Translations under genes and position numbers: made by a program
NCBI GenBank assembly: GCA_002189035.1
Contig: CM007990.1
Span: 3,658,001-3,722,000, forward strand
Length of the DNA stretch: 64,000 nt
From: Utricularia gibba
Taxonomy: Eukaryota > Streptophyta > Magnoliopsida > Lamiales > Lentibulariaceae
Reading direction: 5' to 3'
Shown here: positions 6,854 through 62,912 of the stretch, piece by piece
Layout of the letters: each line of letters begins with the position of its first letter
Numbering within the stretch: the first letter of the stretch is position 1
Notes under the pieces: model-generated
What the model was told of the DNA's origin: nothing
Databases searched by the model: none
The model's input: only the letters and a program-made list of their open reading frames with translations

Positions 6854-8322
6854 ATGGGTTCCTTGGGCTACTACACCTATCCAGATGAAGTCGCGGTGCT
6901 GATGGCACCCTTTCCGCTTCACGGCCACCTCAACCAGCTCCTCCACCTCTCCCGTTTACTCGCCCTCAACGGCCTCACCGTTCACTTTGCCGCCCCGGCG
7001 TCCCACAACCGCCGCGCGCGCCGCAGGATCCATGGATGGGATCCCCTCTCCGTTTCCAACATCGTGTTTCACGATCTACCCCAACTGACGCTTCCCGAAA
7101 ACAGGGGCCTCCTAAACAGAGACGACTTCCCGCCGCAGCTTCATCATCTACTGAGAGCTTGTTCGTCTCTACGGCCGGCGTTTGCTCAGCTTCTGCAAGA
7201 TCTGTGTGGGGACAATCGGCGAGTTGTCATTATCAATGATTCTCTCATGGGATCCGTGGTTCAAGATTTTGTCGAGTTTGAAAATGCCGAAGCTTACACG
7301 TTTCACAGTGTTTCAGCTTTCACCATGTTCTTCTTTCTGTGGGAGAAGTCCGGCAGGCCTTTCGCCATCGACGAAGAAATTCTGGAAAATCTACCTTCCC
7401 TTGAAGGCTGCTTCACGCCGGAGTTCATTCAACTCATCAGGAATCAATACAAGTTCATTGATTTCAGTTCAGGGCGGATCTACAATACAGGGAGAATGAT
7501 TGAGCACAAATTCATCGATCTGCTGAAGAAGCCGGAGATCATCGGCAATCAGAAACAATGGGCTCTTGGGCCGTTCAATCCGGTGACCATCATCACTAAT
7601 TCCGATGAATCCTCGCGCCACAAATGCCTGAAGTGGTTAGACAAACAGGGAAAGCACTCTGTAATTCTCGTCTCCTTCGGGACCACAACATCACTTTCGA
7701 TCGATCAAGTAATGGAGCTCGCAATTGGGTTAGAAGGAAGTGGGACGAAGTTCGTGTGGGTACTCAGGGACGCCGACGGCGGCGGCTATTCTTCCGATGA
7801 AGGTAAAAAACTGATTTTTTTTTCACTTTTTCAAACCACGGTACGAAATTTAGCAACTGAATCCATGAAACAGGGACAGTTAAGTTACCAGTGGGGTACG
7901 AAGAAAGGAACAGAGACATGGGGATGATCGTAAGGGATTGGGCGCCCCAGTTGGAGATTCTAGGTCACCGTTCGATCGGAGGATTCATGAGTCACTGTGG
8001 CTGGAATTCTTGCATGGAGAGTATCTCCACTGGAGTCCCGATCGTGGCCTGGCCAATGCACTCCGACCAACCGAGAAACGCGGCGTTGATGGCCAGTGTG
8101 TTAAAAATCGGAGTAGTCGTCAGGGACTGGAAGTCGAGGAAGGAGGAGATTGTGAAGTCCTCGGAGATTTCAACGGCGGTGAGACGACTGATGATGGAGG
8201 TGGAAGGTGAAGAGATGAGGCAGAGGGCGGCGACGCTCCGGCGCACTGCCGTGGAGGCGGTGGCGGAGGGTGGAACATCGCAGGGGGAACTAGATTCATT
8301 CATTACGCATATTTTAAGGTAG
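6854..8322 (+). CDS. UDP-glycosyltransferase, zeatin O-glucosyltransferase type
   Basis: This is a GT1-family enzyme that transfers a sugar from a UDP-sugar to a small acceptor, probably in the cytosol. The closest family I recognise is zeatin O-glucosyltransferase, which stores cytokinins as O-glucosides. Two exons are inferred: 6854-7802 and 7874-8322 (465 residues; the family is near 460). The N-terminal PFPLHGHLNQLLHLS contains the catalytic His25, and NDSLMGS holds the candidate partner Asp. The 44-residue PSPG sugar-donor box runs from WAPQLEILGH to HSDQ in exon 2. Its final Gln favours UDP-glucose. The junction reads DEG-TVKLPVGYEER, matching family sequence. Without removing the 71-nt intron the frame closes just before the PSPG box. 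Acceptor specificity cannot be read from sequence. Confidence 0.9.
7803..7873 (+). other. 71-nt intron just before the PSPG box of the UGT
   Basis: The donor is GAAG|GTAAAA and the acceptor GAAACAG|GGACAG, with a T-rich interior. The phase-1 splice joins the two frames exactly and restores the family sequence (K-L-P-V-G-Y-E-E-R). Its length is not a multiple of three, so retention would truncate the protein. Most zeatin O-glucosyltransferase genes are intronless, which makes this position unusual. Confidence 0.75.
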
Positions 8323-25975: not shown

Positions 25976-26079
25976 GTTACTTTTACCACAAGACTCTCAA
26001 CATCTTTTCTTTTTCATTTTGCTCCTCTCTCACCTTCAGCCTTCCTGGAAATGGTGGTGAGGTTACTTTTACCACAAGA
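25976..26079. repeat. 18-bp direct repeat at the retroelement break point
   Basis: GTTACTTTTACCACAAGA occurs at 25976-25993 and 26062-26079. The second copy lies exactly where recognisable gag sequence begins, so the repeat may mark a deletion or template-switch junction. Confidence 0.75.
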
Positions 26080-27688
26080 AGCTTAGTAGCAATCTCCACC
26101 TTCTGTTCCTCAGCGTCTCCTTCCACCTCAACTTCACTTCTCTCATTGCTAAATTACTCTTAGGCTGGACTAATTCTCTTCTAGGTTTTTCTTTTCCGCT
26201 TCTTAATGTCATTGTTCTGATATTTTGTCCTCCCCCAGAGTTAGGATTCTGTTTGGCTTGCGACGGTAGGCTTCCTTTTAGCTTCAGTTCCCCAACCTCT
26301 GTTGCTAGCTGAGTAACTTGTATTTCCAGATTCTTGATAGTTTGTTGGTTCTTAGCTTGGTTCTTGATTGATTGGGTCATGAAAGTCTTCAAAATATCCT
26401 CCAATGAACTTCCAGAATTTCCTTCAGAATTATTCTTGTTTGGAGGTTGAAATTGCTGTTTCATCTGCTGGTTTGGCTTGCGAAATTGTGGAGCTTGATA
26501 AGAACCATGCTGTTGCTCCGGGAAATTTTTTTGAAATCCTTGCTGTCCAGTAGATAAACTCTCACCCTTGTAAGAATTTTCATTGTTACTCAATTTGAAA
26601 TTTAGATGATCTCTCCATCTAGGATTGTAGGTGTTCGAATAGGGATCATATTTCTTTCTTTGTGGCTCCAGATATCCCATAGCTTTCACATGCTCCTCCT
26701 TCATCAATTTGGGACATTTATCAGCAATGTGTCCCATTCTGTGGTAGTTCCCGCAAGGCATATTCTTAGCTTGGAATAAAAATAGTTCTTTCATCATCTC
26801 AGACATGGCAGCCACATTTTTCATCAGCTCACTTTCTGATGACTTTGGCTTGCTTTCTAGCTCATAAACCCTTCTGTTCAAGGCTTGTTTTATGATAATA
26901 TGTCTGGAGTACTCGGCCAACTCTTCAAGTAATGCAAGAGCTTTTGTGGGAGTCTTTTTCCTCAAAAACTCACCTGCTACAAAATCCACCATGGCTCTAT
27001 CTGTGCATAGAAAACCATCATAAAAATGCTTGACCTATGCATTGGTTTGAAATCCGTGGTGTGGACAGGAGCCTAGCAGGTGATTAAAACGCTCCCAATA
27101 TTCATGTAAAGATTCACCATTTGACTACTCAATATCACTGATCTTCTTCCTTATTCCTTCAGCCTTTGAAGCAGGGAAATATTTACTAAGAAATACTTTC
27201 TTCATTCCACTCCAATCTGTGATACTCCCAGGCTTCAAAGAGTTAAACCACGTTTTTGAACTTCCTTCCAGTGTGAATTGGAATGTCCTCAAACAGATGG
27301 TATCTTCAGTCATACCAGCACTCTTAAAAGAGGTGCAAACAACAGTCACGTTGTTAAGATGTTCATGTGGTTTTTCACCCACTTTCCCGTAATATTTGGG
27401 CAGAAAATTAATCATAGCTGGCTTTAATTCATCGGTTGTGTCATCAGAAAACCTTATACACAGCCCTCTGTACGTATGATCAGCTGCATCAAGTTCATTC
27501 AGAGTCTTCTCCTGTTCTGCCATGATAAAATTATCTTGAGTGACAGCAGGAAGGGTGCTCAACTTTGCTGCTTCTCTCGCTCTTGTGCGGTTCTTACTGA
27601 TAGCTCTCTTGATTTCTAGATAGAAAACAAGATCACCTGCACTAGAAGAACGCAAATGCATCAACTGAATCACAAAACAATTAAACAT
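26069..27688 (-). pseudogene. Ty3/gypsy gag relic
   Basis: Capsid-like protein of an Athila-type Ty3/gypsy element. The first part (27688-27125) contains LPKYYGKVGEKPHEHL, FTLEGSSKTWFNSL and VFLSKYFPASKAEGIRK, the classic retrotransposon gag domain. The second part (26992-26069) contains TPTKALALLEELAEYS, a zinc-knuckle region CGNYHRMGHIADKC and a Gln/Asn-rich tail. The knuckle should be C-x2-C-x4-H-x4-C, but the second Cys is Tyr. A stop lies in the 27124-26993 gap. The 3' end is lost at about 26062. Confidence 0.85.
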
Positions 27689-38700: not shown

Positions 38701-38805
38701 GAGCAAGAAAATTCTGGATGTCGCTATCATGGTGACGTTGAAAATGCTCCTTAAGAAGCTTCCACGAAGCTCCCGTGGGGTCCGGCTGTACCGTGTTTTC
38801 TCGTG

Positions 38806-38813
38806 TATATAAA
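38806..38813 (+). promoter_or_regulatory. TATA box of the CML gene
   Basis: TATATAAA followed by GGCTCCCC lies about 90 bp before the ATG at 38899. A pyrimidine-rich leader with CTTCTCAAAATTC follows. The spacing suits a transcription start near 38840. Confidence 0.7.
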
Positions 38814-38898
38814 GGCTCCCCTGCTTGCTTTCTCCTACCCTCCAACTTCTCAAAATTCGCATTCTGCTCCTCGCTATTTTACTGCTACTACACTCGCG

Positions 38899-39504
38899 AT
38901 GAAGCTCACCCAAATTTTCACAACCAAGATCTTCAGATCTAAGAAGAAATCGGCGTCGCTGAACTCGCAGAATTCCTTCTGCTCCGCCTCCTCCGACGAC
39001 AGCGTCTCCACGCCGACGAGCGTGATCCCTAGGAATCACTGGAACGACGTCGTCGAAGGCGGCACTCGATTCGATCTTAATCACGTTTTCCACATGATTG
39101 ACGCTGATTGCGACGGCAAGATCCGCAAGGAGGAGCTCGGAGATATGCTGCGCCGAATCGGAGGCGAGAAGGTTAGCGCGGAGGAGATGGATCTGATGTT
39201 AAGCCAGGTGGATACCGACGGTGACGGTTGTATAAGTCTGGAGGAGTTCCGAGTGATGGAGGAGGCATTCGCGCCGCCGACTTGCGACCTAGAGGTGAGG
39301 TGCACTTTTGATTTCTTTGATTCCGATGGAGATGGTCGGATTACGGCAGAGGAGCTGTTCAAAGCGTTTAAAACCATCGGCAATTCGCGGTGCACGTTAG
39401 CGGATTGCCGGCGCATGATCAGAAGCGTCGACAGAAAATGCGAGGGGTTTGTCTGCTTCGACGACTTCAGTCGAATGATGGACCTGCGGACTTTGAGCAT
39501 CTAA
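38899..39504 (+). CDS. Calmodulin-like calcium sensor (CML35/36-like)
   Basis: A single-exon EF-hand protein of 201 residues that binds calcium and relays signals to partner proteins. The start MKLTQIFTTKIFRSKKKSAS is chosen because the upstream frame opens only with GTG and overlaps the TATA box. A Lys- and Ser-rich N-terminal extension of about 60 residues precedes the EF-hands, as in CML35 and CML36. EF-hand 1 is DADCDGKIRKEE, EF-hand 2 DTDGDGCISLEE and EF-hand 3 DSDGDGRITAEE, all with good calcium ligands. EF-hand 4 (DRKCEGFVCFDD) lacks the Asp at loop position 3 and probably binds weakly. No myristoylation site (Met-Gly) is present. The gene is less AT-rich than its surroundings. Confidence 0.93.
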   Translation: MKLTQIFTTKIFRSKKKSASLNSQNSFCSASSDDSVSTPTSVIPRNHWNDVVEGGTRFDLNHVFHMIDADCDGKIRKEELGDMLRRIGGEKVSAEEMDLMLSQVDTDGDGCISLEEFRVMEEAFAPPTCDLEVRCTFDFFDSDGDGRITAEELFKAFKTIGNSRCTLADCRRMIRSVDRKCEGFVCFDDFSRMMDLRTLSI

Positions 39505-61483: not shown

Positions 61484-62912
61484 ATGGCCCAAGGCCCTTC
61501 CCAGGAGGACTCCCGCAGATCTCTGTCTGTGGATTACCTCGATCTGCTCATCAACGGCCAAGCGTTCTCCGATGTCACCTTCAGTTTAGAGGGTCGTTTC
61601 ATCTACGCGCACCGCTGCATCCTGGCGGCGCGTAGCCATTTTTTCCGCAAGTTTTTGTGCTCCCCGGATGCGCCTGCTGCCGGTGCGGTGATTCCGGTCA
61701 GCTACGTCAGATACGAGGCTTTCTTGTTGCTGCTTCAGTTTTTGTACTCTGGAGAGGTTCATACGGAGCTACTTCCAAGCTTCGGTGGGCATGATCATGT
61801 CTCCTCGGCCGTCGATCTCACTGTTGACACACTGGTTGCCGCTAGATCTTTTGGGGTTGACGAGCTTGCCTTCATCACCCAGGTTTTGCATTGATAATCC
61901 CAAATTTAATTAATCATTTTGTGATACTTCAAGCAAATCCTCCATCGTGTTCGATTAAGCTTCTTCAATTCATGAAATTTTTTAATAGAATTTGTGTCTT
62001 TTGGTTGATAAAGAGGCAACTTGCGGGCATGGTGGAAAAGGCTTCAGTGGAAGATGTGATCAAAGTTCTGCTAGCTTCAAGGAAACACGAGATGCAGCAA
62101 CTATGGATAACATGCTTCAATCTGGTAGCAAACTCCGGACTCCCATCAAATGAACTAGCAAAACATCTGCCTATCGAAGTCGTGTCGGAGATCAAAGACC
62201 TCCGTCTCAAATCGACTATCTCCGCCGCCCGGCGAGAGCTCCTCTACCTAGACAGCGCAGATGTCCAAGCACAGAAGGTTCGGCGGATGAGACGGGCCCT
62301 GAATTCATCGGATGTTGAGCTTGTTAAACTCATGGTAATGTCGTATTCTACAGCATTTGGAGGTAGGCTTAAGGACCATATTCATCTCTTGTGGGATTGC
62401 AGGTGATCGGGGAAGGGCTCAATCTCGATGAGGCGGCGGCGCTGCATTACGCCGTCGAGTATTGCAGCAGAGAAGTAGTAAAATCTCTACTCGAACTGGG
62501 CTTCGCCGATGTGAACTTCCCACTGGTGCTGACCGGGAAAACGCCACTTCACATCGCTGCCGAGATTGTCTCGCCGGACATGGTGGCGGTGCTTCTCGAC
62601 CACCACGCCGACCCCACTGTGAAATCCGTCGACGGTGCAACGCCGTTGGATATATTACAGAATTTGACTTCCGATATGATGTTCAAACTTCCCTCGCCCC
62701 GGGTGCCGCATGCTATGCCGAATAAGTTGCGGCTTTGTCTCGAGCTTGTGCAGTCGGCGACCATGGTGATCTCTAGAGAGCAAGGGAAGGGCAATGTGTA
62801 CGGCGCAATGGGAGCAACGGCTCCGGCCACCACCGGCTCTACAATATTTTACCTGAATCTCAAAGGCCAAAATGGGAAGGGGGAACAAGAGATCAATGCC
62901 AACAGTAAATGA
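61484..62912 (+). CDS. BLADE-ON-PETIOLE/NPR5-like BTB-ankyrin regulator
   Basis: Transcriptional co-regulator of the NPR1 family, BOP clade, which acts with TGA bZIP factors in lateral-organ boundary and leaf patterning. Three exons are inferred: 61484-61882, 62014-62334 and 62403-62912 (409 residues). BTB/POZ spans about residues 14-120 (LLINGQAFSDVTF, AHRCILAARSHFFRKF). A helical NPR1-like region follows (MVEKASVEDVIKVLLASRKH, GLPSNELAKHLPIEVV). Ankyrin repeats include GLNLDEAAALHYAVEYCSRE and GKTPLHIAAEIVSPDMVAVL. The tail keeps NKLRLCLELVQSATMVISRE and FYLNL. The C2HC zinc motif between BTB and ankyrin (CGERGCWHTHC in Arabidopsis BOP2) is absent, replaced by FGGHDHVSSAVDL. The protein is shorter than typical BOPs (about 470-490). 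ATG 61484 is chosen because the longer frame opens with GTG. Confidence 0.9.
62335..62402 (+). other. 68-nt second intron of the BOP-like gene
   Basis: The donor is CTCATG|GTAATG and the acceptor GATTGCAG|GTGATC, phase 0. Splicing gives KLMVIGEGLNLDE, matching KLMVMGEGLNLDE of BOP proteins. Retention would end the frame. BOP genes usually have only the first intron, equivalent to 61883-62013 here. Confidence 0.8.

Follow-up and report, generated by a model that had tools for sequence, protein, structure and literature searches.

Introduction

BLADE-ON-PETIOLE (BOP) proteins, which regulate leaf patterning in plants, form one clade of the NPR1-like family. Members of this family share a nearly invariant zinc site; its motif, C-x4-C-x-H-x2-C (C2HC), is conserved in the whole family and does not define the BOP clade. 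The npr1-2 allele (C150Y), in which the first zinc cysteine of NPR1 is mutated, reportedly impairs the protein. C150, H300, and H334 are described as conserved in all compared NPR1-like proteins of wheat, sugarcane, and Arabidopsis, BOPs being included for C150, and the mutation of NPR1 C150 corresponds to npr1-2 (PMC6928982; PMC9317693). TGA3 contacts the ankyrin repeats of NPR1, and the NPR1 dimer links two TGA3 dimers (PMC9360754). BOP1/2 bind CUL3A (PMC5582868), and the tomato BOPs, which form condensates, keep the conserved BTB cysteines (PMC13252624). The genome of the bladderwort Utricularia gibba comprises ~82-100 Mb and has passed through at least three whole-genome duplications and heavy gene loss (PMC10663240); a literature search returned nothing specific on BOP genes in Utricularia. 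The following sections concentrate on one such gene, located in a stretch of 64,000 nucleotides of this genome (the window). The gene has lost the zinc motif and has evolved under purifying selection.

Gene structure and domain architecture

The gene (window BOP) lies on the plus strand and encodes 409 amino acids in three exons, with no internal stop once both introns are spliced, as determined by splice-site and frame analysis and translation. Exon 1 (61484..61882) encodes the N-terminus and the BTB domain (residues 1-133) and is joined to exon 2 across the splice sites CAG/GTTTTG ... AAAG/AGGCAA. Intron 1 (61883..62013, 131 nt) occupies the same position in all BOP paralogues and in the NPR-like gene of this plant. 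Exon 2 (62014..62334, residues 134-240) carries the helical region, identified by translation and the Pfam family DUF3420, and exon 3 (62403..62912, residues 241-409 and stop) the ankyrin repeats, assigned by translation and Pfam, and a short C-terminal tail. The preliminary description of this locus had regarded the BTB domain, helical region, and ankyrin repeats as intact and in order, and the Pfam matches follow exactly this order: BTB at residues 24-95 (E 2.5e-15), DUF3420 at 176-226, and ankyrin repeats at 230-314. No Pfam match to the NPR1_like_C domain was obtained in the window BOP, whose C-terminus is short and BOP-like and ends ~50 residues past the conserved NKLRLCLELVQ segment. The tail (residues 371-409, 62793..62912, plus strand) is divergent in comparison with the paralogues and of low confidence in the predicted structure; the terminal SS-M/I-YHH motif, present in three paralogues, is missing from it. 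In a phmmer search against solved structures, NPR1 was the only relative matched across the BTB and ankyrin parts jointly, and in a tree in which NPR1 and the NPR-like gene of this plant served as outgroup, the BOP group, including the window BOP, stands apart from the NPR1-type proteins (100/100). The window gene thus belongs to the BOP (NPR5/6) clade, and its product is a BTB-ankyrin protein.

Intron 2 (62335..62402, plus strand, 68 nt, GTAATG...TTGCAG) does not occur in the BOP paralogues. If it is left unspliced, a stop is met ahead of the greater part of the ankyrin repeats, whereas excision brings the exons back exactly into frame; translation of the repeats therefore requires its splicing, a point absent from the preliminary description. 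Since exon 3 is under purifying selection (see below), splicing is the likelier reading, which makes this stretch a candidate intron gain. A search for its source elsewhere in the genome returned only the intron itself, which is flanked by the near-repeat GTAATG/GTGATC. Introns are reported to be fewer and shorter in U. gibba (PMC10574757). An apparent extra intron was also seen at a different position in the paralogue at C505:2.903 Mb, after ELRIQ (L023:1283-1377, approximate boundaries).

Absence of the zinc motif

The C-x4-C-x-H-x2-C motif is absent from the window BOP: three of its four ligands, the cysteines, have disappeared, a single histidine persists, and the segment is shorter by nine residues. 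Where the four BOP paralogues read DCGDRGCWHTHCSAAV, DCSDRGCWHTHCSSAV, DCSVRGCWHTHCSSAV, and DCNQRGCWHTHCSSAV, the window BOP has LPSFGGHDHVSSAVDL. Alignment with the four paralogues, the NPR-like gene, and NPR1 delimits a shortened former zinc loop at residues 91-112 (EVHTELLPSFGGHDHVSSAVDL; 61754..61819, plus strand). The histidine equivalent to NPR1 H157 is kept in this alignment, and no cysteine occurs between residues 59 and 167; which residue faces the first two lost cysteines depends on gap placement, the absence of cysteine there does not. The alignment and the open frame together confirm the original observation that the cysteine cluster is gone without a frameshift, and the coordinates first given for the gene are also correct.

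An assembly or gene-model artefact, with sequencing errors or a missed exon concealing the motif, is very improbable. Several one-base homopolymer differences do break the frame in three paralogues of this assembly, but the sequence on either side of the loop aligns with no change of frame, the other two frames contain no zinc motif over the loop when this spot is translated, and the cysteines were replaced via several substitutions and a multiple-of-three deletion rather than by an indel pair. A paired sequencing frameshift or a hidden frame restoring the cysteines was rejected, as neither other frame holds the motif.

The loss goes beyond chance, as two comparisons indicate. Of 71 positions invariant across the four BOPs, the plant's own NPR-like gene, and the solved NPR1, the window BOP keeps 64, and the zinc cysteines make up three of the seven that have changed (p about 0.0006). 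Changes at paralogue-invariant positions are in excess in the loop (11 of 17) compared with the remainder of the protein (52 of 234; Fisher p 0.0004). The cysteine equivalent to NPR1 C82 is kept (C45), and C156 and C216 of NPR1 have no cysteine equivalent in any BOP of the U. gibba genome; the loss therefore touches zinc binding first and an NPR1-type redox switch only indirectly. The altered redox control proposed at the outset accordingly needs care, the lost cysteines being zinc ligands. The ankyrin histidines equivalent to NPR1 H300 and H334 are kept.

Canonical relatives, age, and genomic neighbourhood

The genome (100.09 Mb, 516 contigs) was covered by search and by stretches. The preliminary description had proposed looking for a second BOP gene with the motif; four further BOP genes were found (C402:351.6 kb, C505:1.927 Mb, C505:2.903 Mb, and C213:2.122 Mb), next to one NPR1-like gene, and all five carry C-x4-C-x-H-x2-C. 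Synteny marks the BOPs at C402 and C505:1.93 Mb as duplicates of each other. One-base homopolymer differences break the frame in three of these canonical paralogues (stretches L021, L022, and L024); they are likely assembly errors, although real lesions are also possible.

With NPR outgroups included, the tree places the window BOP outside the group formed by the other four (support 80/72, with long-branch attraction possible). Its placement beside C505b or C213 alone was ~10 lnL units worse and was rejected. Pairwise dS between the window BOP and the other BOPs amounts to 1.7-2.3, which is close to saturation, compared with 0.66 between the C402 and C505 duplicates and 0.34 between the flanking glutaredoxin-like gene and its copy in a duplicated block. 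Given its position outside all four in the tree and a dS of about 2, the window BOP is not a young or recent duplicate.

No neighbours common to the window BOP and the other four BOP loci were found within ~10 kb of the paralogues. A sister duplicated block (C451:1.583-1.592 Mb) keeps the neighbours of both sides in inverted collinear order; the correspondence of window positions 38803-39504 and C2:3722001-3742000 with C451:1582800-1592799 includes calmodulin-like and glutaredoxin-like genes, among others. The BOP and ~25 kb surrounding it are missing from this block, and no BOP remnant was found there or in C304 beside the related glutaredoxin-like gene. The second copy may have been deleted, or the BOP may have moved later into the window block. 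Elsewhere in the window, minus-strand ORFs that look like the gag region of a retrotransposon, zinc knuckle included (26069-27688), and an ORF resembling a plant glycosyltransferase with a diverging end (6854-7927) were noticed by eye.

Selective constraint along the coding region

Selection on the window branch was compared with that on the other branches by a codon model written for the analysis, using 374 gap-free codons; three paralogue frames were joined across the one-base homopolymer differences, with the affected codon masked in most cases. The w (dN/dS) of the window branch is 0.179 (profile about 0.12-0.27) versus 0.109 on the other branches, a marginal difference (LRT 3.7), and w=1 is rejected for the window branch (2dlnL 56.7). 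In tests of the single parts, uncorrected for multiple testing, exon 1 shows a w of 0.225 on the window branch versus 0.067 on the others (LRT 7.7), and the BTB core, a short segment, 0.235 versus 0.047 (LRT 6.2); for the BTB core alone, w=1 is barely rejected on the window branch (3.8). In exon 2, w is 0.147 on the other branches versus 0.078 on the window branch, and in the ankyrin part 0.056 versus 0.086. Neutrality is also rejected for exon 3, 3' of intron 2 (2dlnL 17.0), and for the ankyrin part (17.8). Constraint is thus relaxed approximately threefold in the BTB exon but is still tight in the helical region and the ankyrin repeats.

The preliminary description had left two readings, a paralogue with altered properties or one in early decay, and had named the branch dN/dS as a means of checking them. 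With a value of 0.18, far under 1 and indicating purifying selection, rejection of w=1 (2dlnL 56.7), and an open frame, early decay is not borne out; a BTB-altered paralogue stands, given four motif-bearing BOPs and the relaxed BTB exon. A decay in which the zinc loop, the C-terminal end, and the 68-nt insertion would be marks of a recently lost function is unlikely. The loop deletion, the missing terminal motif, the lack of a sister-block copy, and the 68-nt stretch, frame-breaking if unspliced, would fit such a loss; they are countered by 409 open codons, by w far under 1 even in exon 3 downstream of intron 2, and by the form of the 68-nt stretch itself, which starts with GT, ends with TTGCAG, and restores the frame exactly when excised. 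Of the marks of a decaying pseudogene (stops, frameshifts, neutral dN/dS) the gene shows none, having an open frame when spliced and a w of 0.18, although a very recent loss could be reconciled with these values. The window-branch dS of 1.26 is near saturation, so that w averages over a long time and a recent loss of function on up to about the last fifth of the branch would escape notice; by our own arithmetic, if w mixed old constraint with recent neutrality, the upper profile bound of ~0.27 would leave room for neutral evolution over no more than about that share.

Predicted structure

A single-sequence structure prediction was poor (pLDDT 40) and was set aside. AlphaFold, given the window BOP and an alignment in which the exons of its relatives were left unjoined, yielded a model with a pLDDT of 73 overall, high in the BTB domain and helices and about 57 in the former zinc loop. 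Foldseek ranked NPR1 first for this model, followed by SPOP/KBTBD-type BTB proteins. VIA-align also placed NPR1 first (Z 17-20), with an rmsd of 19 A over 305-325 residues, so that the placement of the domains relative to NPR1 is unreliable in this model. It does not resolve oligomeric states.

Possible role of a BOP without the zinc site

The reading that we favour, at roughly even credence, is that the window gene is an old, retained protein-coding BOP whose BTB domain lacks the zinc site, with altered assembly and a conserved partner-binding ankyrin region. SPOP-type and other BTB families outside the NPR family are not known to carry a C2HC zinc loop and fold without one, so that the BTB domain of the window BOP probably still folds. 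The zinc-stapled junction of the BTB domain with the following helices would be changed, and self-association, pairing with the four canonical BOPs, condensates, and use as a CUL3 adaptor may consequently be weaker or different. Binding of TGA- or ALOG-type transcription factors would be retained through the conserved ankyrin region. A protein of this kind might modulate the canonical BOPs, e.g. by titrating partners or by being separately wired, rather than replace them. Against an old, retained, BTB-altered BOP speaks that the 68-nt intron 2 could be a recent disabling insertion and that the C-terminal tail has lost its terminal motif as well. That the gene has a distinct, selectively maintained role, e.g. 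in dominantly modulating the assemblies formed by canonical BOPs within the bladderwort's highly reduced shoot, is a tentative and somewhat doubtful extension.

It is somewhat unlikely that the zinc site is simply dispensable, i.e. that the window protein works like the canonical BOPs and lost its cysteines near-neutrally in a redundant five-gene family. The presence of four other BOPs would relax the demand on each, non-NPR BTB domains need no zinc loop to fold, SPOP-type BTBs are among the structural matches of the model, and the overall w is only mildly higher than that of the other branches (LRT 3.7). Yet the three cysteines disappeared together, 11 of the 17 positions in the loop changed, and the site does not vary among the relatives compared; C150, whose mutation is npr1-2, is shared by every NPR1-like protein in the wheat and sugarcane studies (PMC6928982; PMC9317693).

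With a BOP that lacks the zinc site under purifying selection, the contributions of this site (BTB stability, assembly, use of CUL3) could be told apart from the role of the ankyrin region, and the four canonical paralogues in the same plant would serve as controls. The window BOP is thereby an unusual form of a known protein, suited to probing the function of the zinc site.

Comparison with known systems

The closest described relatives are the proteins of the BOP1/BOP2 (NPR6/NPR5) clade, represented in this genome by the four paralogues, with which the window BOP shares the BTB domain, the helical region, the ankyrin repeats, the position of intron 1, and an identity of about 50-75% per exon piece. 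It differs from them in lacking the zinc cysteines and the terminal YHH, in a loop shorter by nine residues, in the extra 68-nt intron, and in a relaxed BTB. Arabidopsis NPR1 (PDB 7mk2, 7mk3, 7tac, 7tad, 9zjn) is the best full-length structural match and likewise has the ankyrin core and the C82 cysteine, whose equivalent the window BOP holds; identity is about 30%, however, and NPR1 retains the C2HC motif (C150, C155, H157, C160) and a longer C-terminal part that is missing here. With SPOP-type BTB/3-box CUL3 adaptors, the BTB domain and subsequent helices of the model can be aligned, but the overall architecture differs, and the resemblance is one of fold only.
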